Shown piece by piece: positions 28,539 to 63,879 of a DNA stretch of 64,000 nt. The notes under the pieces were generated by a model. It did no database searches, was not told the origin of the DNA, and saw only the letters and a list, made by a program, of their open reading frames with translations. The DNA comes from Nostocaceae cyanobacterium (GTDB lineage Bacteria; Cyanobacteriota; Cyanobacteriia; Cyanobacteriales; Nostocaceae). The translations under genes were made by a program, and so were the position numbers. Position 1 is the stretch's first letter. Each line of letters starts with the position of its first letter. The DNA lies in NCBI GenBank assembly GCA_030065825.1, contig JASJCY010000035.1:1-64000 (forward strand). Reading direction: 5' to 3'.

Positions 28539-29888
28539 TTAGCTTAAGATTCCATCAATTGACAGTCCAAAACCCAAAAAGTAGCGAGCGCTACAAAGAA
28601 TCACAATTAATCCAACCAGTAATAGTGTTGCTTGAATATCCTGTACTATAGATGCTAGTCCTTCTCGCCAAAGACCATAATTAATTGCTGCATAAAAAGG
28701 AATATCATTTAACGCGATTGCAATTACAGCCCCTAAAAGTCCCATATAGGAAAATGCCAGTGGTAATACACATAACATGTAAGTAAACTTGAGAAAGTTG
28801 CCCCAAGCCAAGTAAATAGGTTTGCCCACTGCCAAAAGAGTCGGACTACTAAGTAGCATTAAAAGATAAGGCCAAATACCCAGAGCTAGAATTGGTAACA
28901 TCCAAGCAGCATCATTATATCTTTGATCGTATAGTAGTAATATCAGGAAATCTCCGCAGAAGACTAAAACCGCGACACAAACTCCCATACCAACAAGTAG
29001 CAGCCAGCGTATTGATAAAATTTTGGCTCGAAGACTCTGACGCGGTAACTCTGCAAACTTAGAAATCACTGGAAAAATTACTCTATAGCTAAGACTTCCA
29101 AATATCAGCTTTGGCAAATCTGCAAGAGTAAAAGCAACAGTATACACACCTAGCATTTCTAATGTAAACAATTTTCCTAAAATCAGTCGGTCAGATTGCA
29201 TCGCCAAAAATGTTATGGCTGTTGATATAAATATCCACTGACCGAAAGACAAAAGTTCTTTGGCTGCATCTTTATCCCAGGCAAAACGGTTGGGGATTTC
29301 TGGAACTAATCTATGGCTGCGCACAAGATCTACCAATCCAGATATAAGACCTCCATTAACAAGTGCCCAGACTGTCGGATTAACCCAAGCCCAGGTAATT
29401 GTCACCATATGTTTGATTCCTGCCCCCACCAACTCAAATCTTGTCAGCTTACCCTGTAATAGATGGCGGTTGAGCGTGAATACCCCTGTAGATTTAAAAC
29501 CGCCAATAACCACATTTAGTCCAATTATGGGAATGAACAATAGTAGTTTTGGTTCTTTGTAGAATGTAGCCACAGGCCAAGCAATTAAGAACGTAGCTAT
29601 CCACAGTCCCAAACCACGTATAACCTGCAATGTCCAGGCAGTATTCAGAAAATCAGGGTCATCGCCGCGCTTATGGCGAACAATGCTTGGACTGATACCA
29701 ACATCTGAAAACATTTCTAAACCAGCAATAAAGGTATTGACCAAAGCCATAAGACCAAAATACTCTGGAACGAGCAGGCGAGTTAGGATCAGATTCGATG
29801 CAAATCGCATTAACTGACCTGCAAAATTAGTAAAAAGAGTCCAAATAGTAGCGAGGATAGCTTGTTTTTTAAGTGATGACACGGACAT
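28539..29888 (-). CDS. Wzx/WzxC-type polysaccharide flippase, first copy
   Basis: 449 aa with 12-14 predicted transmembrane helices. The N-terminus FAGQLMRFASNLILTRLL, VPEYFGLMALVNTFIAGLEM, FSDVGISPSIVRHKRGDDPD is characteristic of the polysaccharide_synt_3/WzxC group of the MOP superfamily. It flips lipid-linked EPS repeat units across the cytoplasmic membrane. Unlike the second flippase in the window it ends at the last helix (LGFGLSIDGILS), with no extra domain, which makes it a useful internal comparison. Confidence 0.88.
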   Translation of the reverse strand: MSVSSLKKQAILATIWTLFTNFAGQLMRFASNLILTRLLVPEYFGLMALVNTFIAGLEMFSDVGISPSIVRHKRGDDPDFLNTAWTLQVIRGLGLWIATFLIAWPVATFYKEPKLLLFIPIIGLNVVIGGFKSTGVFTLNRHLLQGKLTRFELVGAGIKHMVTITWAWVNPTVWALVNGGLISGLVDLVRSHRLVPEIPNRFAWDKDAAKELLSFGQWIFISTAITFLAMQSDRLILGKLFTLEMLGVYTVAFTLADLPKLIFGSLSYRVIFPVISKFAELPRQSLRAKILSIRWLLLVGMGVCVAVLVFCGDFLILLLYDQRYNDAAWMLPILALGIWPYLLMLLSSPTLLAVGKPIYLAWGNFLKFTYMLCVLPLAFSYMGLLGAVIAIALNDIPFYAAINYGLWREGLASIVQDIQATLLLVGLIVILCSARYFLGFGLSIDGILS

Positions 29889-49448: not shown

Positions 49449-51350
49449 TTACCTGTCATTTTCGCAGAAATATGCCAACAAATTGACATAGGCAGCTTGA
49501 TAATAAATTGCTGGCTCTGTTATCGTCCAAGAACCTTCTGAAAACCGTTTCCACACATTCCAAGGGGTATTCCAGTCTTTATACGCTTTTTGCGGTGGTT
49601 CCCCAAAGGGAGGAGCAACCTGTTTAATTTCATAATATTTATTTGGTCCACCAGATACAAATCCCGGACCAGGTCCATACTTAGAGTTAGTACCATCGTA
49701 TACACTGCCGTCATGGAACCAACCATGTACTATTTCCATCACACTCTTTTCGGCACCTGCTTTTGCCCCTTTTGCTCCCATATTGCTCAGGTAAACCCAT
49801 GAAAGGGGATTCCGACCGTGAAAATAGTGGAGATACTCCTCGGCATTTTGCTCATAGAATTGGTTGCGTGATGGTTCCACCTCCAATAATCTGGCTAAAA
49901 GAAAAGTAATACCCCAGTCTGCTTTAACCTGATTAGAACCCCAGTAATAATCCCAAACAAAGGCACGATATGGATCTTCTTTGTTGATATCAAGATTGTT
50001 GTACCACGATGTTATGGTTTTCAGGGCATTTTTAATCTCAGCTACTTTTGCTTTATCTGCACCTTGAGTTTGGGCATAAGTAACATAGGCAAATTGCTTA
50101 TGCCAAGACCTTTCTTTATCACCCATGGGGTCAAACCAGCCGTCTTTTGGTGGCGTATAATTACTATCAAAATATTGTTTATAAACCGTTTTACCTGTTG
50201 CTCGGTAGAGTTCCGCTGCTGCCCAAAAACGCCACATATCGTCAGATTCTTTTTCATCAGCTTGGGCAGCAACCCCTAACTTTCCTTTACTACCATAATC
50301 ATGACCATCTTTAGGGATTTTATTGGGATTTAATTCAAGGTATTTCCAAGCATTTTCCGCAGCAGCAATCAATTTTTCACTGTAGCCAGGATAGACATTA
50401 TTGAAGTTTTGAAATAGACGTGATGCGTTGGCGCTGCTAATAATTAAACTTGCCGTTGACCAAGTAGTTGGTTCAGTATAATATCTCCTCGTTATATCTT
50501 TATTTGGCATTCCGGCAAACTCTCCCCCATTAGTGCTAGCAACACGATTGGCAACGGAACCATCTGCCATTTGCATCCGCAAAATCCAATCTAATTCCCA
50601 TTTTATTTCGTCTAAAATATCGGGAACACCATTACCACTTTCGGGGATATTATAATTATCAGTAAATGCAGCGGGATTCAGTTCGTAGGCATTAATTAAA
50701 TTCCAAAGTGTTTTGGTAGTAAAGGGAACATATTTATTAAAATCTCCCGCATCATGCCAACCACCATGAACATCTTGAGGCTGAGTGTTTGTGGTGTAAC
50801 GCAAGGCAGCATAATCTTGATTTTTACCAATATGACATGCTTGATGATTCCAATTACCACCATATTTTCTAGGAATATTTGTCCCACAACGTTGGTAATA
50901 AAATGTTCTTACCGCAGCCTTAAGAACCTGATTATAAATATCATTTCTAATGTCAAAGGTAAAAGAACGCAGATTGTTTGCCCGGTCGTAAATATAGTAG
51001 CTACCTTCGGTTTTCAAGCCAGTGAAATCACCCCACCAAACTTTATCACCTGAGGATTCATCCATTACACCATTTTTCCAAGCTTTAATAGCACCAGTAT
51101 ACACAGTTTGATTGTTATCTTGACGTCGAACTTCAAACTGGGAACCTGGTTGATATTTAATTTGCGAATTTTGACCTTTAATGGGATTAGCAAATATAGC
51201 AACTTTTACAGCTTGAGGTCGCCATCCAAATTGGTCAATAATTATCTGTTCTGTCAACGGAATATTCTGTGCATCTACTTGTATAGATAATATTGAAACC
51301 AGGGATAGACCAAAGATTACTACTGCCAGAAATAAATTTTTTTTATTCAT
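49449..51350 (-). CDS. glycoside hydrolase family 9 endoglucanase, secreted
   Basis: 633 aa. A classical signal peptide (MNKKNLFLAVVIFGLSLVSI, cleavage likely after VDA) directs export. An N-terminal CelD_N-type Ig domain (about 30-135: IIIDQFGWRPQAVKVAIF, FEVRRQDNN) precedes the GH9 (alpha/alpha)6 barrel. GGWHDAGDFNKYVPF has the catalytic-base aspartates (D200, D203), and ITEPAIYYQAAY near the end holds the catalytic acid E612. It cleaves beta-1,4-glucans. In an EPS cluster it most likely trims or releases the cell's own polymer. No dockerin or carbohydrate-binding module. Confidence 0.94.
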   Translation of the reverse strand: MNKKNLFLAVVIFGLSLVSILSIQVDAQNIPLTEQIIIDQFGWRPQAVKVAIFANPIKGQNSQIKYQPGSQFEVRRQDNNQTVYTGAIKAWKNGVMDESSGDKVWWGDFTGLKTEGSYYIYDRANNLRSFTFDIRNDIYNQVLKAAVRTFYYQRCGTNIPRKYGGNWNHQACHIGKNQDYAALRYTTNTQPQDVHGGWHDAGDFNKYVPFTTKTLWNLINAYELNPAAFTDNYNIPESGNGVPDILDEIKWELDWILRMQMADGSVANRVASTNGGEFAGMPNKDITRRYYTEPTTWSTASLIISSANASRLFQNFNNVYPGYSEKLIAAAENAWKYLELNPNKIPKDGHDYGSKGKLGVAAQADEKESDDMWRFWAAAELYRATGKTVYKQYFDSNYTPPKDGWFDPMGDKERSWHKQFAYVTYAQTQGADKAKVAEIKNALKTITSWYNNLDINKEDPYRAFVWDYYWGSNQVKADWGITFLLARLLEVEPSRNQFYEQNAEEYLHYFHGRNPLSWVYLSNMGAKGAKAGAEKSVMEIVHGWFHDGSVYDGTNSKYGPGPGFVSGGPNKYYEIKQVAPPFGEPPQKAYKDWNTPWNVWKRFSEGSWTITEPAIYYQAAYVNLLAYFCENDR

Positions 51351-51675: not shown

Positions 51676-51830
51676 TTCTTTCTTGTTCCCTGTTCCCTGT
51701 TCCCTGTTCCCTGTTCCCTATTCCCTGTTCTCTGTTCCCTATTCTCTATTCCCTATTCCCTGTTCCCTATTCTCTATTCCCTATTCCCTATTCCCTGTTC
51801 CCTGTTCCCTGTTCCCTGTTCCCTATCTCT
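51676..51830. repeat. (CCCTGTT/CCCTATT)n heptamer array
   Basis: About 20 tandem heptamers of CCCTGTT, CCCTATT, CTCTATT and CTCTGTT. This is the complement of the GGGAACA array at 39.1 kb. The mixture of variants shows expansion followed by drift. The 74-codon frame through it (repeating Pro-Cys-Ser-Leu-Phe) is an artefact. The rest of 51,351-52,075 is AT-rich upstream DNA, a 24-bp direct duplication (TTATAGGACTTATATTTGAT) near 51,585-51,625, and the element at 51,862. Confidence 0.9.
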
Positions 51831-51861: not shown

Positions 51862-52044
51862 TATAGCAATCCTAAATGATTCATAAGAAAATACGGAGAT
51901 GCATAACGTACTTTATATAACTGCCTATGGAACTATGTATTACGCAATGTATATAATTTTAGCCACAAAAGAGGTTGTTAATGAGTTTTAAAAGTTATGT
52001 TTACAGGTTAAGTGTTTTCTCACAACTGATTCCGGATTGCTATA
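51862..52044. mobile_element. TATAGCAATCC inverted-repeat element
   Basis: 183 bp. The left end TATAGCAATCCTAAATGATT and the right end (reverse complement) TATAGCAATCCGGAATCAGT form a terminal inverted repeat of about 30 bp with mismatches. The first 11 bases are identical. No open frame, so it is non-autonomous. The TATA ends suggest TA insertion. It lies 32 bases downstream of the stop codon of the flippase-receiver gene. Confidence 0.7.
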
Positions 52045-52075: not shown

Positions 52076-53842
52076 TTAACGTAAATTTTTAAACAAAATT
52101 TTGATTAATTCAGCTTGGGTAAACGGCTTGATTAAATATCCAGAAGCTCCGACAGCTGTTGCTTTTGCTTGATCTATAAAACCATTTCTTCCAGTTACCA
52201 TAATTACAGGTGTGTTTTGAAAGTCCGAATGGTTACGCAACAATGAACATAATTGATAACCATCTAAGTTTGGCATACCTATATCTAATAGGATTATATC
52301 TGGCTTTTCCCGAATAATTTCGACAAGGGCTTTCAATGGATCGGTAATTAAAATTACCGAAAACAAAGCATCATCCAAATTATATAAAAAGCTGTCTATG
52401 ATGTTTAGCACACTTGGACTATCATCAACACAGATAATGGTATAACTTTTCTTATTATCTTTGGTTGAGGGAAGTAGGGATTTTGTATTTTGATTGTAAT
52501 CGGTTGCCGGTAAATCTACTGCAATATTACTATTATTATTTATATTGCTGAGATTAAGTTTTGCTTTTCTGTTAAGTTCTCGTCGATAGAGAATAAATAC
52601 TAATGCCCACAAGCCAACCATATTTAATCCATCTGATGCCAAACTAGACCAAGCAGCACCTTTCCAAGAGTATATAGGAATCAGCCAAAAATTAAGCAGT
52701 AAATTCAACATTGCCGCAGTAACTTGTATAGCACTGCGCACTCCCTGAAATCCCGCTCCGGTTAACGTATCGGCAGCAAAAAAGCTTAGACTTGCAATCA
52801 AAAGCAGGGGAGCTAACCAATGTAATGCCTCTACTACATTTACATATTCTTCACCTAATATATACGGCACAATGGGAGCAAAAAAGAATAGGCATAATGA
52901 CCCTAAAAAACCATACAAACCTGCTATTAATGATAATTGAATAGCAAATTTGATATTTCCACTAATACCTGTTTCACCTTTTTGAAAAAACTTGGCATAG
53001 GTAACAGCCATAAGAGAGGCAATCGGTACAAATGCTACATCAATTAAACGATAAGCAGCTCCATATATCCCTGTTGCTTCTAATGTAGAAAGACGAGTTA
53101 ACAGAGTTTTGTCTATATTTTGATTGATATTGTCAGCAGCTGCATCTAGAGAAAAGTAAAACCCTTGCATAGCCTCAGATTTGAAGCGCCAAAGTGCCAA
53201 CCTGGGAGATTCTAAGAAGCGATTTACCATTAAACAAGTAATTAAAGCCAAGGCTAGTGTACTAGTGAAATATAAAATCGCCCACACAGTCAAAGTAGCC
53301 TTTGGAAAAAAGACGACTAAAATTACAGCACCAACTAAATTTTTGATACTAAATAAAATGTTGATTTGAGCTGTTCTGTGGAGCATCTCGACAGCCATAA
53401 ATGCCTTACCACTAGCATCTATAATTAATTTAAAAAGTAATTCTGCCAGCAGAAAAAGAATTATAGTTACTGGGGATACTGGAATAGGAATAATGCTTTT
53501 AGCGACAAATGCTAGTACAGTAGTTAATACTAAGCTAAAAACAAGTATAATAAACAGTGTATTCCCCCAGTATTCACTGAACAAAGCTCTGTTTCTAGAG
53601 ACATGTTTAATCATAATCTCTCCACTGCCCCAATTGACAAAGGGCAGGAATAGCGTTGCCAGTGCAACTATTCCCACAAAAGCTCCATACTGTTCACTAC
53701 CAAGACTACGAGCAATGATGACAAAATAGGCTGCTTGCACAAATAATTTCAGCCCATTGGAAAGAAGCATCAATAAAGTATTGCGTACTATCGGTTTCTG
53801 AATTATCTTAGTAAGATAAGATTTGATTTTTCTAATATTCAT
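52076..53842 (-). CDS. Wzx-like polysaccharide flippase fused to a response-regulator receiver domain
   Basis: 588 aa. Residues 1-~425 are a MOP-superfamily polysaccharide flippase with about 12 TM helices. N-terminal RNTLLMLLSNGLKLFVQAAY, FVIIARSLGSEQYGAFVGIV and later YGAAYRLIDVAFVPIASLMA are typical. A polar Asn-rich linker (about 430-463) leads to a complete receiver domain (464-588). It has the acidic pair D473-D474 in CVDDSP, phosphoacceptor D520 in ILLDIGMPNLDG, T550 in MVTG and K572 in YLIKPF. No DNA-binding output domain follows. The gene starts 27 bases after the Wzy-like gene. I infer that phosphorylation of D520 tunes export. A single uninterrupted frame spans both parts. The first Wzx in this window lacks the extra domain. 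Confidence 0.9.
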   Translation of the reverse strand: MNIRKIKSYLTKIIQKPIVRNTLLMLLSNGLKLFVQAAYFVIIARSLGSEQYGAFVGIVALATLFLPFVNWGSGEIMIKHVSRNRALFSEYWGNTLFIILVFSLVLTTVLAFVAKSIIPIPVSPVTIILFLLAELLFKLIIDASGKAFMAVEMLHRTAQINILFSIKNLVGAVILVVFFPKATLTVWAILYFTSTLALALITCLMVNRFLESPRLALWRFKSEAMQGFYFSLDAAADNINQNIDKTLLTRLSTLEATGIYGAAYRLIDVAFVPIASLMAVTYAKFFQKGETGISGNIKFAIQLSLIAGLYGFLGSLCLFFFAPIVPYILGEEYVNVVEALHWLAPLLLIASLSFFAADTLTGAGFQGVRSAIQVTAAMLNLLLNFWLIPIYSWKGAAWSSLASDGLNMVGLWALVFILYRRELNRKAKLNLSNINNNSNIAVDLPATDYNQNTKSLLPSTKDNKKSYTIICVDDSPSVLNIIDSFLYNLDDALFSVILITDPLKALVEIIREKPDIILLDIGMPNLDGYQLCSLLRNHSDFQNTPVIMVTGRNGFIDQAKATAVGASGYLIKPFTQAELIKILFKNLR

Positions 53843-53869: not shown

Positions 53870-55117
53870 TTATTTAAATGTTTTTGTCCCTTGTTCAGAT
53901 GGTATAAGTAGAGAGAAAGATACTGTGACATACAGAACCCAATAAAGACCACCCGCCAGCAGTGAAGTTTCAGTCAGATTAGCTATGATGATGTTGGTCA
54001 AATACAACAATGGCCAAAGCCCCTCTGTTGTCTTACTTAGATGCACCAAGTTAATCGCTTTGAGGACATTAAGGAAAAATCCGATAAAAAATACAGCGAC
54101 CCCTAAAGCCCCTAGACCCAATGCTAGGTCTAAAAAGCCATTGTGTGGATCGGTAACTTTCCAGTTAGCTGCCCGCCATATATAAAAAGCATCGTTAGAC
54201 TCCCAAAATGCACTAAAACCATAACCTAGCATAGGACGTTTTTCAATCATTTCCCATAGGAAGGGCCAAAAATCTGTACGACCGGTGAGTGTTGTATCTT
54301 TACCGATTGAACTTGCCAAACTCTCTGCTTGATCAACAATCCACATTAACAATCCTCCGCCAAAAGTTGCTATGGCAAAAGTTGTGGGAACCATCACCTC
54401 ATAGCGCCACCTGAAGGTACGATATATAAAAAATAAAAGTAACATAATTACGAAAACACCCAAAGCTGTTGTCGAACGGGCAGCAGCTAATAAAATGATT
54501 GAAATTAAGAACAAAAACCAGAAAATTAAATTATATTTTTTGGCATCAATAGCTCGAATTAAGAATATAATTGCACCAAGTGTAATCATTTTGCCAAAAT
54601 TATTTTTATGGGTGTATATTCCCCGAAAAACTCCAGCATGTACTCCACCCATCAGTCCATATCTTGGTGGAACTACAGCAAATATAATGCTGAGAATTAT
54701 GACTATAATAAACATCCAACTCAATAACTTTATCTGTTCTCTCAGGGTGTAACGTGTAGCAAAGTAAAGCCCAAATAAAGTAGTTAAAATTAAACTGATA
54801 CCCTCTTTAATAGTCATGGATGGAGAAACAGACCATAGACAGGAAATAACTGCTATTCCTACTAGCAGAGATAAAAATCTATCTTTACTAAGTACAAAAA
54901 CAATTTTCTTCCATCTCAGCGTCAGTAGACAAAAAGTTATCAAATAATTTATCAGGAATCCCAGTTGATTTAATGCAAAATTAAATGATGTGAGAACTAC
55001 TCCATCTCCCTCACTCGCACCCCTGGTTAGTATCAGGGGAATAATTCCTGCTGAATAATGTATTAAAGAGAATATTGTGAATATAGCTTCAAAAAAATTG
55101 ATATATTTTTTCGGCAT
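53870..55117 (-). CDS. O-antigen ligase/polymerase-like protein (Wzy/WaaL), second copy
   Basis: 415 aa with 10-12 TM segments. The Wzy_C/O-antigen ligase signature is clear: THKNNFGKMITLGAI, TLTGRTDFWPFLWEMIEKRP, MLGYGFSAFW and DPHNGFLDLALGLGALGV. It would polymerise or transfer undecaprenyl-linked units on the outer face of the cytoplasmic membrane. It lies directly upstream of the flippase-receiver gene, with a 27-base spacer on the same strand, so the pair forms an export/polymerisation operon. Confidence 0.88.
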   Translation of the reverse strand: MPKKYINFFEAIFTIFSLIHYSAGIIPLILTRGASEGDGVVLTSFNFALNQLGFLINYLITFCLLTLRWKKIVFVLSKDRFLSLLVGIAVISCLWSVSPSMTIKEGISLILTTLFGLYFATRYTLREQIKLLSWMFIIVIILSIIFAVVPPRYGLMGGVHAGVFRGIYTHKNNFGKMITLGAIIFLIRAIDAKKYNLIFWFLFLISIILLAAARSTTALGVFVIMLLLFFIYRTFRWRYEVMVPTTFAIATFGGGLLMWIVDQAESLASSIGKDTTLTGRTDFWPFLWEMIEKRPMLGYGFSAFWESNDAFYIWRAANWKVTDPHNGFLDLALGLGALGVAVFFIGFFLNVLKAINLVHLSKTTEGLWPLLYLTNIIIANLTETSLLAGGLYWVLYVTVSFSLLIPSEQGTKTFK

Positions 55118-55436: not shown

Positions 55437-56420
55437 TTATTTCGTAACTCTATATAACTTCGCTTCCACTTGCTTTTGAATATGTTTTAACGATTTTTGA
55501 AAACCAGGAAATGGTCTAACAGCCGATGATATTATAGGCTTAACAATAGCCTTAGTAGACCTCTTAAGTCTGAGAGGTACAGGAACAACACCCATTTCTG
55601 AAATCAATCGGGTATGTGTAGCATAATACCATTTGTAAGACTCATTTCCAATCATAAAATCAAACTCTTCATATTTACGCTTGAAACTCTCCTGCAAAAC
55701 AAACTCCATGATTAAACGTCCTGGAGAACAATTTCGATAGGAAATGTCATAGGCAGGAATCCATGAATACAAACGTCCTTTCAAAGACGCACTAAGGTCA
55801 ACCGCTATGGGTTTTTCTCCAGCGCTAAGACTCGAAACTAACAGAAGTCCTTTATTTGCTAGTTCTTGGAATAATCGTACATGTTCTTGATAAGCGAAGG
55901 CATCAATCAATCCAGAATTGCGGTATTGTTGAGATTTCCAAGCAAGACAAGTGTCCAAAATATGTGGTCTGTTGTCATCAAATATAAATTTCACCGGACC
56001 TACTTCTTTCTCTAGCTTTCGACGTCGTCTTCGAGAATCAGCAAATATCTTTGGCTGATTTTGTTGCACATATTCTACAAAATCATCCCAGGAAGTAAAA
56101 TCTTCCCAAATAATTGTGGGTGCAGGTTCATAAATATCTTCTAAATTTTGATCGAACCATTCATTTGAACTGACTAATCCATGACAAGCTTTGGGAATAT
56201 AATTTAATTTTTTGATCCTATCCTGTGGAGAAATCAATTGCTGTTCATAAGATTCATAAAAATCAATAAACTGTCCTGTCAGAATCGGTTTCGTCGAATT
56301 GATGGTGGGTATTTTCCATAATCTACCATCTAGTTCAAATAACTGAGGCTGAATTTTATGATTAGGAAAATAAGCTACTCCAAAAGCTTCACAAAAAGTA
56401 TCGTCAGAGTAAATGTTCAT
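55437..56420 (-). CDS. FemAB/BioF2-like GNAT-fold acyltransferase, copy 1
   Basis: 327 aa. The central SRRRRRKLEKEVGPVKF (about 129-145), WKSQQYRNSGLIDAF, LLLVSSLSAGEKPIAVDL, WIPAYDISYRNCSPGRL and FDFMIGNESYKWYYATHTRL blocks follow the pattern of the acetyltransf_6 (CelD/BioF2-like) family. There is no signal peptide. Such proteins in EPS loci are thought to acylate sugars. It has a same-length paralogue 502 bases upstream on the same strand. Direct acyl substrate unknown. Confidence 0.8.
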   Translation of the reverse strand: MNIYSDDTFCEAFGVAYFPNHKIQPQLFELDGRLWKIPTINSTKPILTGQFIDFYESYEQQLISPQDRIKKLNYIPKACHGLVSSNEWFDQNLEDIYEPAPTIIWEDFTSWDDFVEYVQQNQPKIFADSRRRRRKLEKEVGPVKFIFDDNRPHILDTCLAWKSQQYRNSGLIDAFAYQEHVRLFQELANKGLLLVSSLSAGEKPIAVDLSASLKGRLYSWIPAYDISYRNCSPGRLIMEFVLQESFKRKYEEFDFMIGNESYKWYYATHTRLISEMGVVPVPLRLKRSTKAIVKPIISSAVRPFPGFQKSLKHIQKQVEAKLYRVTK

Positions 56421-56922: not shown

Positions 56923-57906
56923 TTATTTTGTGACTTGATATAACTTTGCTTGTACTTTTTTTTGAATATCTTTTAATGATTTTTTTAAGCCAGGAAATGG
57001 TCTTATAGCTGATGACAATATAGGCTTCATAATAGCCTTAGTAGACCTCTGAAGCCGGAGAGATATAGGAGGAGTTCCCATCTCTTTAATCAGTCGGGTA
57101 TGGGTAGCATAATACCATTTATAAGGCTCATCTCCAATCATAAAATCAAACTCTTTATGGTTGAGTTGAAAACTTTCGTTCAAAAGAAGTTCAAGCAGTA
57201 AACGTCCTGGAGAGTAGACTTTATAATTGCTATCATATGCAGGTATCCACCAGTATAAACGCCCTTCTAAAAGTACACCAAGGTGAACAGCTATTAGCTT
57301 ATCACCTGCACTAAGACTTGAAACTAACAGTAAGTCTCTATTTACAAGTTCTTGGAAAAATCTCACATGTTCTTCATAAGCAAAAGCATCAATGTATCCA
57401 GACATGCGATATTGTTCGGATTTCCAGCCCATACAGGCTGCTAATACATCTGCTCTACGGTCATCAAATACAAATGTTAGAGGTCCTACCTCTTTTTCCA
57501 TTTTTCTTTGCCGTCTGCGGGTATCACTAAATAGATTGGAACGCTTTTGTTTTACGTGCTTAACAAATTCGTCCCATGAATCAAAATTGTTCCAAATAAT
57601 TGTGGGAGCAGGTTCATAAATTGTTTCTAAATTATTTTCAAACCACTCATTAGTAGTGACCAATTTATGAGAAACTCTGGGAATGTAATCGACTTTCTTT
57701 ACAACACTAACTGCTTCTTTTGATGACTGCTCATCAGATTCATAGAAATCAATAAAGGGTCCTGTAACAATTGGCTTTTTATAATCTATGGTAGGGATTT
57801 TCCATAATCTACCTTCTAGCTCAAATAGTGCAGGCTGAATTTGCTGATTAGGAAAATAAGCTGCCCCAAAAGCTTGACAAAAACTATCGTCAGAGTAAAA
57901 GTTCAT
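56923..57906 (-). CDS. FemAB/BioF2-like GNAT-fold acyltransferase, copy 2
   Basis: 327 aa, the same length as the next gene downstream and colinear with it. Shared blocks: MNFYSDDSFCQAFGAAYFPN, LFELEGRLWKIPTI, DTRRRQRKMEKEVGPLTFVF, LLLVSSLSAGDKLIAVHL, FDFMIGDEPYKWYYATHTRL and the C-terminal IRPFPGLKKSLKDIQKKVQA. The paralogues differ most near 75-90. Both keep all recognisable motif residues, so both are probably functional; divergence suggests different acceptors or acyl donors. Confidence 0.8.
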   Translation of the reverse strand: MNFYSDDSFCQAFGAAYFPNQQIQPALFELEGRLWKIPTIDYKKPIVTGPFIDFYESDEQSSKEAVSVVKKVDYIPRVSHKLVTTNEWFENNLETIYEPAPTIIWNNFDSWDEFVKHVKQKRSNLFSDTRRRQRKMEKEVGPLTFVFDDRRADVLAACMGWKSEQYRMSGYIDAFAYEEHVRFFQELVNRDLLLVSSLSAGDKLIAVHLGVLLEGRLYWWIPAYDSNYKVYSPGRLLLELLLNESFQLNHKEFDFMIGDEPYKWYYATHTRLIKEMGTPPISLRLQRSTKAIMKPILSSAIRPFPGLKKSLKDIQKKVQAKLYQVTK

Positions 57907-61101: not shown

Positions 61102-63879
61102 CTATTCACCTCCTGGTACGTTGATTCCAGGTATTTGGATTCCAGGTAAGCTATCCAGTTGTGAATCAGTCAGGGGGTCACCTCCAAAATTTTGATACAT
61201 ACGAGCAAGACTTCCTGTAAAGGCAGCATTATAGTCTAAAGCTACTTCGTTAGTGAAAAAATTAGTGCGATCGTCTACATAGGAGTTATCATCTGCGGAG
61301 GCAGGACCACCAACGAGGGCACCGTAAAGGATGTTAGCATTTGGTTCCAAACTCTCAAAGGTAATCCAATCGCCATCGTGAGCGCTAGCATGATGAGGTC
61401 TGAGGGGGAAATTACTGCCAAAACCAACCATATAGCTGAAATTTCTGGGGTTATCACCAAGAATGTAGTCGATTTGATCCTCGGCAAAATTGGAATAACG
61501 ACCCTCAGGGTTAGTGACAGTATCGCTGTAAACCCCTGCAAGAAATGCAGTATTAGCAGCATATCTTAAAGAACTCCACTGACTGAACCATGCCAGTCCT
61601 CCCTCAGTATAGGTGATGCCTGAACCACTGTTATCAGTCCAATAATTAAGCCACTCTTGGACATCATCACGATACACAGCCTTATTAGTTTCCTGAGCGA
61701 GCAGAATGGCTGTACCGTTTTGTTTATTTTCCCAACTTTGAGTCCCTTGTACCCAAGTGCCTGAGTAGTTTTGTTCGGCTTTAGTCAGATAGGATTCTTC
61801 GCCAGTTGCTTTATAGAGCCACATAGCTCCCCAAGCCAGTTCGTCTTCGTAAATGGTGGAAGTATAAAGGTTGTTAACATCTGCAATCGAATCGGAATAT
61901 TTGCCGCGATAGGTGTCTGCAAAGGTGTAGAGTTGCTTGGCATTTTCTAGCAGCAGGTCTGCATAAGCACTGTCAGTGGGACGGAAGACAATGGAAGCAG
62001 CAGCCAGAGCTGCCGCAGCTTCAGCAGCCAAGTCGGAACCGGGGTTTTCACGGTCAATCTTCAGAGCAGGTCGCTCCATGGTCATCTCTTCCGCTGGTCC
62101 CCAATAAGCGTGATCTAGTTCGGTTAGTCCGACCTGTGCCCAAAATTCTTTGGTACCGTTGGCGTCAGTAATATGTGCCTTGAGAATGTAATCAGTTCCC
62201 CATTTGATGGCATCTAAAGCCTCATCCAGTTGACCACTTTGCTCGTAACCCTGGCGATATTCATCTACCCCCCAAGCCAGCATGGTCATAGAAGCTGCCA
62301 TAGGGAAGCCCAACTTCAGGTGATCGCCAGCATCGTGATATCCACCGGTCAGGTCAACACCAACATCAGCCCCATCCCTGAGAGCAGAATCACCACGCCA
62401 CTCGATGCGATTATCCTCAGGTAAAGGTCCGGAGCGCTGAGCCTCATAAAAGAGGAAGGATTTCTGGAGGGCTTCGCCGTAGTTGAAAGACTCGTCGTCT
62501 AGGATACTTCCTACTCCTTGACCATCAGCAAGACTAACCCCCTGGGGGTTGGACAAGTGGATCACAAAACCTTCAGTGACTTCCTGAGTGCTGTCATCCA
62601 GAGATGACACTGTAATCATTTTGGCGGTTTCACCGGGAGCGAAGGTCAATGTACCACTAGTTGCTGTATAGTCAAGCCCTGCAGTTGCTGTGCCATCTTT
62701 GGTGGAGTATGCCACTGTCACCGTGTCGCTACTTGCTTGGGAAAGCTGCACTTCAAAGTTGAAAACATTATTGGTGCTTGAATTACTTTCTGACAAGGTG
62801 ACATCGTTAATGGAGATTTGCGGTAGAGATACCGCTTGTGTGGACTCTCCATTCAGAAGATAGTTACTAGGAACTGCGATCGCACCAAGAGTATTGTTTC
62901 CCTGGAAGCCAAACGAGACTGTTTCCCCCGCAGCAATGGTGCCATTCCAGTCAGCATTACTAATGGTGTACCGATTCCCTTGTTGCTTGACAATTTGAGC
63001 ATTCCAGATTGCTTCGGGGGGAATCTCAAAGTCAGCGTCGAACTCAAGGTTCCATCCTTCTATGGCAGTGGTGCCATTGTTAGTAACAGAAACCTCCTCC
63101 AGAAAGACACCGTCCCAGTCGTTAGTTACCACAAATTTAACCGACGGTTGGTCAGGGGTACTGACAGCCTGAGGTATTACTGGAGAAGCTTGTGGTAAAG
63201 GTTGTTCATCGACAATTACACCTATGGCATAACCATCAATCAGGGTAGCTGACCTAGGATTGAACAATTGGATGGCAAAACTTTCATCCACTTCCTGAAT
63301 CACATCACCCAAAACTGGCACAGTAATTATTTTGCTAGTTTCACCAGGAGCGAAAGTTAACACACCAGCAGTCGCTTCATAATCAGACCCCGCTTTTGCC
63401 GTGCTATCGCTGGTAGCATATTGTACTGTTACTGTATCGTCACTCGCTTGGGCAAGCTGCACTTGAAAGTTGGCGTAAGTGATGCCTTGATTACCTGGAA
63501 TAGCCATCACATCGCTAATTGAAAGCCCTGGAAGAGTCAGTATTTCTATGGAGGCTCCGTTGAAAAGATAGTTACTCGGTTCTACAGTGGTTGTGTCGTC
63601 AGAGATACTGGCATTGAAACCAAAAGAAATACTGTTACCAGAGGAGATGGTGCTTGTACCCCTAACGGTATAGAGATTCCCCTCTTGATTGACAATTTCA
63701 GCACCCCAAATATCAGTAATCTCGAAAGGAGCTTCAAACTCAAGCGTCCATCCAGAAGTTACACTCTCACCAGTGTTATCTATCTGTATGTTTATGTTCC
63801 CCGTAAAGCCAATCCCCCAATCCTCACTTCGGAAGAATTGAACAGTATTCATTGGTTCATTACCAAATCTACATGACAA
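61102..63879 (-). CDS. multidomain GH9 cellulase with CBM2 and Calx-beta modules
   Basis: 925 aa. Order: CBM2-like (~12-115, with TSGWTLEFEAPFEITDIWGA and GNSISFGFNAS), Calx-beta (~118-225), second CBM2-like (~245-352), second Calx-beta (~354-462), GH9 (~466-900). GH9 residues: HDAGD at 515-519 (catalytic base region) and E878 in TNEVALDYNAAFTGSLARMY. There is no N-terminal signal peptide; the mature CBM starts almost at the first Met. Export by a non-Sec route such as type I secretion is likely, as for other Calx-beta proteins. M10 is an alternative start. It probably binds and trims beta-glucan outside the cell. Confidence 0.93.
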   Translation of the reverse strand: MSCRFGNEPMNTVQFFRSEDWGIGFTGNINIQIDNTGESVTSGWTLEFEAPFEITDIWGAEIVNQEGNLYTVRGTSTISSGNSISFGFNASISDDTTTVEPSNYLFNGASIEILTLPGLSISDVMAIPGNQGITYANFQVQLAQASDDTVTVQYATSDSTAKAGSDYEATAGVLTFAPGETSKIITVPVLGDVIQEVDESFAIQLFNPRSATLIDGYAIGVIVDEQPLPQASPVIPQAVSTPDQPSVKFVVTNDWDGVFLEEVSVTNNGTTAIEGWNLEFDADFEIPPEAIWNAQIVKQQGNRYTISNADWNGTIAAGETVSFGFQGNNTLGAIAVPSNYLLNGESTQAVSLPQISINDVTLSESNSSTNNVFNFEVQLSQASSDTVTVAYSTKDGTATAGLDYTATSGTLTFAPGETAKMITVSSLDDSTQEVTEGFVIHLSNPQGVSLADGQGVGSILDDESFNYGEALQKSFLFYEAQRSGPLPEDNRIEWRGDSALRDGADVGVDLTGGYHDAGDHLKLGFPMAASMTMLAWGVDEYRQGYEQSGQLDEALDAIKWGTDYILKAHITDANGTKEFWAQVGLTELDHAYWGPAEEMTMERPALKIDRENPGSDLAAEAAAALAAASIVFRPTDSAYADLLLENAKQLYTFADTYRGKYSDSIADVNNLYTSTIYEDELAWGAMWLYKATGEESYLTKAEQNYSGTWVQGTQSWENKQNGTAILLAQETNKAVYRDDVQEWLNYWTDNSGSGITYTEGGLAWFSQWSSLRYAANTAFLAGVYSDTVTNPEGRYSNFAEDQIDYILGDNPRNFSYMVGFGSNFPLRPHHASAHDGDWITFESLEPNANILYGALVGGPASADDNSYVDDRTNFFTNEVALDYNAAFTGSLARMYQNFGGDPLTDSQLDSLPGIQIPGINVPGGE

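Follow-up and report, generated by a model that had tools for sequence, protein, structure and literature searches.

A polysaccharide flippase joined in frame to a PatA/PixG-type receiver domain in a Nostocaceae cyanobacterium

The flippase-receiver frame and its surroundings

The window analysed here, a stretch of 64,000 nucleotides from a filamentous Nostocaceae cyanobacterium, contains a polysaccharide gene cluster with a single ATG-initiated frame of 588 aa on the minus strand (52076-53842). An earlier sequence-only reading of this DNA had described the frame as a flippase joined to a receiver, and both Pfam families were found well above their cut-offs, with Polysacc_synt at residues 18-280 (63.4 bits, cut-off 28.2) and Response_reg at residues 469-583 (82.7 bits, cut-off 30.2). 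The frame divides into three parts, all on the minus strand: a Wzx-type MOP flippase ending at about residue 427 (residues 1-427, 52562-53842), a linker starting at about residue 428 (residues 428-463, 52454-52561) and a CheY-like receiver (residues 464-588 plus the stop codon, 52076-52453). A Wzy-like polymerase gene (Pfam Wzy_C / O-antigen ligase; 53870-55117, minus strand) is located upstream of the fusion on the same strand, at a distance of 27 bp, bearing out the tight pair noted before, and the two genes are likely to form one operon. The first flippase in the window (28539-29888) has no receiver according to Pfam, again as had been read from the sequence.

The polysaccharide cluster also includes two similar genes for 327-aa GNAT-type acetyltransferases (55437-56420 and 56923-57906, the former with an Acetyltransf_6 match), which look like a tandem duplication, and the polysaccharide genes are flanked by two family-9 glycoside hydrolases of the cellulase type (49449-51350 and 61102-63879), one of which carries CBM2 and Calx-beta domains. 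The interval from the fusion gene to the GH9 gene contains a GGGAACA-type heptamer repeat array (51686-51826), with similar arrays at dozens of sites in the genome, and a 183-bp MITE-like element with the inverted ends TATAGCAATCC and GGATTGCTATA is found 31 bp past the stop codon of the fusion gene (51862-52044), with two more genome copies which are about 90% identical.

The AlphaFold model of the fusion protein (22-row alignment, mean pLDDT 89.3, pTM 0.72) shows two confident domains and a linker which is mostly disordered, with pLDDT values below 50 for residues 441-462. Hydropathy analysis gave 11 strong hydrophobic segments ahead of residue 420, and the helices of the model were read as 12 transmembrane helices extending up to residue 438. 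A Foldseek search of the PDB with this first part returned WzxE, the flippase for lipid III (9g95, with a TM-score of 0.73 by target length), and MATE transporters, consistent with a MOP fold of about 12 transmembrane helices. Since the helix number is even and the N-terminus is positively charged (six K/R and no D/E in residues 1-24), both termini are expected to be in the cytoplasm, which would place the receiver on the side of the membrane where contact with a kinase must occur. From its family and the adjacent Wzy_C gene, the flippase part is predicted to flip undecaprenyl-PP-linked repeat units.

The second part of the model is a complete alternating beta/alpha receiver from residue 467 to 587, with the (beta/alpha)5 fold, for which Foldseek returned CheY4 and RR468 from the PDB. 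All active site residues named in the sequence-only reading are present, namely the acidic pair D473/D474, the phospho-Asp D520, T550 and K572; the codon of D520 (52283-52285, minus strand), the predicted phospho-acceptor, aligns with an Asp that is invariant among 20 related receivers. Based on the 70 positions which are kept in at least 85% of these 20 receivers, the fusion receiver retains 65/70, the five changes being I472V, M507V, K542Q, K562T and L580I, and it is set apart from its relatives by K542Q, K562T and three additional residues ahead of beta2. When differences at codon positions 1+2 are divided by those at position 3, the ratio is 0.33-0.52 for the fusion, within the range of the other receivers compared (0.29-0.68), and its end branch of 0.34-0.39 in the trees is within the range of the paralogues. 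Both the codon-position ratio and the ordinary end branch argue against decay of the receiver, although the constraint measured in this way may largely predate the fusion. Phosphorylation of the receiver by a histidine kinase is plausible from these sequence features. The protein does not belong to the EpsW type, as it has two domains and scores 63.7 bits with the NCBIfam EpsW model (cut-off 200).

We also searched the frame for ATG, GTG and TTG startcodons and found none between codons 411 and 478, with the receiver beginning at around 466; the receiver is thus not translatable on its own, ruling out its production as a separate protein. The GC3 content is alike on either side of the junction (0.285 and 0.272), the linker contains no long homopolymer, and there is no second copy of the junction DNA anywhere in the genome. 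The best relatives of the receiver DNA in the genome are about 70% identical (70-71%) over most of its length, which rules out a recent DNA-level duplication of the receiver within this genome. As the junction DNA is unique and the receiver DNA has no near-identical copy, a repeat-driven misassembly or chimera is unlikely, and the flippase-receiver frame looks like a genuine, lineage-specific gene fusion which is so far unique.

Source of the receiver tail

Residues 428-588, i.e. the linker and the receiver, match the C-terminal tail of the PatA/PixG-type (PATAN) response regulators, which are regulators of the motility type. The similarity starts at the linker, as seen with a paralogue from the same genome (contig C292) which carries DUF4388 and is 59% identical over residues 428-587. 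A PATAN-like N-terminus was present in 37/39 of the closest receiver proteins collected, placing the fusion receiver in the PatA/PixG clade, and the two exceptions are both from the genome studied here: the flippase fusion and a 457-aa protein encoded on contig C213. The N-terminal PATAN (DUF4388) domain has no match in the fusion protein, where the flippase takes its place, and the genome contains seven PATAN matches in addition to the two fusions. The sequence-only reading was right in placing a receiver on the flippase, but had missed both its PatA/PixG-type origin and the second protein with such a tail.

This second protein (C213:25915-27285, corresponding to L112:1495-2868, minus strand) consists of a PpiC-type peptidyl-prolyl isomerase (rotamase) with a linker and receiver of the PatA type at its end. 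Among the matches listed from 59 further genomes of this family, the PpiC relatives cover the isomerase part alone, and receivers are found as separate matches. From these sequences, the lineage has appended a PatA-type linker and receiver to two proteins which are unrelated. The flippase and PpiC tails are not grouped as sisters in the tree, but an AU test does not reject that they are (p = 0.15). The presence of the PpiC fusion in the same genome shows that the PatA-type tail can be transferred, and would show replacement of the output domain of PatA-type regulators in progress. For the flippase, the 3' end of a patA/pixG-type gene, comprising linker, receiver and stop codon, may have replaced the stop region of the flippase gene.

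Distribution of the joined architecture

Orthologues of the flippase part, 425-436 aa long and 42-56% identical, were found in seven same-family genomes, and two relatives come from other phyla, one of 449 aa in a Verrucomicrobia MAG and one of 420 aa in Deinococcus. All seven orthologues and both other-phylum relatives end about where the flippase part ends, and none of the nine contains a receiver. As read from the sequences, Wzy-like genes adjoin several of the same-family orthologues, the same pairing as at the fusion locus, and a gene of the O-antigen ligase family adjoins the Deinococcus relative. A related cyanobacterial flippase (L176:821-2569, minus strand; G251, contig C61) has an N-terminal extension of about 170 aa, the start of which resembles a Wzy C-terminus, perhaps representing a Wzy-Wzx run-on frame.

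The joined architecture was searched for with a profile made from eight artificial flippase-receiver chains, constructed for searching only, which was run over 390 cyanobacterial genomes with a few top candidates scored per genome. Among the matches listed from these 390 genomes, a flippase and receiver in one frame was found only in the genome studied here. For other phyla, the analysis covered plasmid records and, in one pattern-based scan, 84,980 species; 3,077 plasmid records were matched, but in none of them did a single place account for 80% of the query. Several candidates were rejected on closer inspection: frames of about 600 aa in genus g103 are hybrid kinases next to receiver-GGDEF proteins and include no flippase, a 612-aa frame in G251 is the flippase with the N-terminal extension and has no receiver, a 526-aa frame in G506 is an ordinary 427-aa flippase, a 440-aa frame in G047 is a PATAN regulator whose linker is long, and a frame in G023 is short and located near a contig end. 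With a single genome among the matches listed, no conservation backs the joint architecture. Homologues with the two parts always separate had been named in the sequence-only reading as an argument against the fusion, and this is in effect what the homologues show, although the frame in this genome stands.

Possible control of the flippase by phosphorylation

Within the portion of the window that was examined, no kinase gene was found near the fusion. As candidate kinases, the genome contains five Hpt-bearing proteins, on contigs C167, C156, C211, C118 and C214, of which the C156 protein bears the only match to the CheA dimerisation domain and shares its contig with a PATAN regulator that has CheY- and CheW-like proteins as neighbours, and the C167 protein likewise shares its contig with a PATAN regulator. 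With seven PATAN matches and two fusions versus five Hpt proteins, it is probable that the kinases are shared between receivers.

In the reading which we favour, the fusion is real and lineage-specific, was formed with the tail of a patA/pixG-type gene, and most likely allows control of the flippase through phosphorylation of D520; taken as a whole, we rate this at just under an even chance. The receiver would be tethered to the cytoplasmic C-terminus of the flippase via an extended C-terminal helix and the flexible linker, and D520 would be phosphorylated by a CheA-like or Hpt-bearing hybrid kinase which serves PatA-type receivers. The resulting change in the receiver could then raise or lower the activity of this polysaccharide pathway at the flippase step, with either sign conceivable, or alternatively the flippase could be recruited to kinase or motility sites. 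That phosphorylation of D520 may alter the activity or position of the flippase is proposed here by analogy with PixG, EpsW and MurJ. The complete active site, the confident fold of both domains, the PpiC fusion and the presence of candidate kinases speak for this reading, whereas the restriction of the fusion to one genome among the matches listed, the K542Q and K562T changes, the insertion ahead of beta2 and the finding of no kinase gene close to it in the examined portion of the window speak against it.

A first alternative is that the receiver is a tolerated passenger, in which case the fusion is real and the receiver folded and perhaps phosphorylatable, but transport is not controlled and the addition is too recent to have decayed. 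We consider this unlikely, but it deserves serious attention, as the joint architecture is confined to one genome among the matches listed, the orthologues work without a receiver, the junction is at the natural end of the flippase, the least harmful place for an addition, and the PpiC protein has been extended likewise. Against this stand the fully retained active site, the codon-position ratio, which is as in PATAN receivers, and the end branch, which is not elongated. A less probable alternative, which we think rather improbable, is that the flippase serves mainly as a membrane anchor, and that the tethered receiver is a phosphate sink or a binding partner of a kinase which also serves the PatA-type regulators, so that signalling is altered rather than transport. 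The excess of PatA-type receivers over Hpt kinases, which makes sharing likely, is in keeping with this, as is DifD, which is described as a phosphate sink in competition with EpsW for DifE (PMC12802240), but the flippase part is complete, conserved and located beside its own Wzy gene, which argues that a role in transport has probably been kept, and the second fusion partner, PpiC, has no obvious anchoring role. Finally, an assembly or sequencing artefact joining two genes is very improbable, for although the fusion comes from one genome, a 313-contig draft and the sole one of its genus compared, it is joined in frame where the flippase naturally ends, with unique junction DNA, a distant best copy of the receiver DNA, no long homopolymer in the linker and similar GC3 across the junction, and a fusion of the same type is present on another contig.

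Returning to control of the flippase through D520, the ingredients already known are receivers that act on enzymes of the Wzx/Wzy pathway, MOP flippases with a regulatory tail in the cytoplasm, and proteins such as CbrA and CrbS in which a transporter and two-component domains form one chain. A receiver on the Wzx flippase itself had no description in the literature searched, as the sequence-only reading had anticipated, and was found nowhere else in the genomes searched. We know of no earlier example of a Wzx flippase which is gated or positioned directly by a phosphorelay. The wider proposal that a two-component phosphorelay has this role here, and that the PatA-type tail is a transferable C-terminal switch which is present on at least two unrelated proteins and spreads chemotaxis-like kinase control to new targets, is more doubtful, and is put forward as a tentative possibility.

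The post-translational control of Wzx/Wzy polysaccharide pathways is incompletely understood (PMC12802240), and in hormogonium-forming cyanobacteria motility needs both Wzx/Wzy polysaccharide and chemotaxis-like systems (PMC12288463). The fusion could put polysaccharide export directly under a sensor kinase, and a flippase bearing a receiver of the type which chemotaxis-like systems phosphorylate would physically and directly link these systems to the polysaccharide.

A close parallel in the Wzx/Wzy pathway is in Myxococcus xanthus, where phosphorylated EpsW activates the pathway via its initiating transferase (PMC12802240). The EpsW-EpsZ pair and the fusion have in common a chemosensory-type receiver and a post-translational control which is exerted directly on a membrane enzyme, but EpsW is a separate protein and targets the initiating phosphoglycosyl transferase, whereas the fusion receiver is covalently attached to the Wzx flippase, at a later step. 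Some small monoPGTs are reported with receiver domains (PMC12802240), and resemble the fusion in having the receiver within the same chain. The PatA/PixG-type regulators of cyanobacteria (PMC12288463, PMC5812497) are the source of the linker and receiver and probably share the same kinases. PixG in its phosphorylated form interacts with PilC and PilB1 in Synechocystis (PMC12288463). These regulators differ from the fusion in that the latter is without the PATAN domain and has the flippase as its output part.

Among the flippases, the mycobacterial MurJ/MviN is similar in being a MOP-superfamily flippase for lipid-linked sugars whose C-terminal side, in the cytoplasm, bears a regulatory domain that is phosphorylated, as a kinase-like domain in the C-terminal cytoplasmic region of M. 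tuberculosis MurJ is phosphorylated by PknB, which is proposed to lower its activity (PMC6180346). MurJ differs in having the Ser/Thr kinase PknB and the FHA partner FhaA, a pseudokinase instead of a receiver, and lipid II in place of the repeat unit of a polysaccharide, and no Pfam match to a C-terminal kinase-like domain of the MurJ type was found in the fusion, which matched flippase and receiver families only. Similarly, no Pfam match to SLC5, STAC or histidine-kinase domains was found in the fusion. The SLC5-STAC histidine kinases CbrA and CrbS combine a transporter and two-component domains in one chain (PMC7096432, PMC5715377), as the fusion does, but in these proteins the partner of the transporter is a histidine kinase and the transporter is probably involved in sensing, whereas in the fusion a MOP flippase carries a receiver only and would be the target of a signal and not its source.
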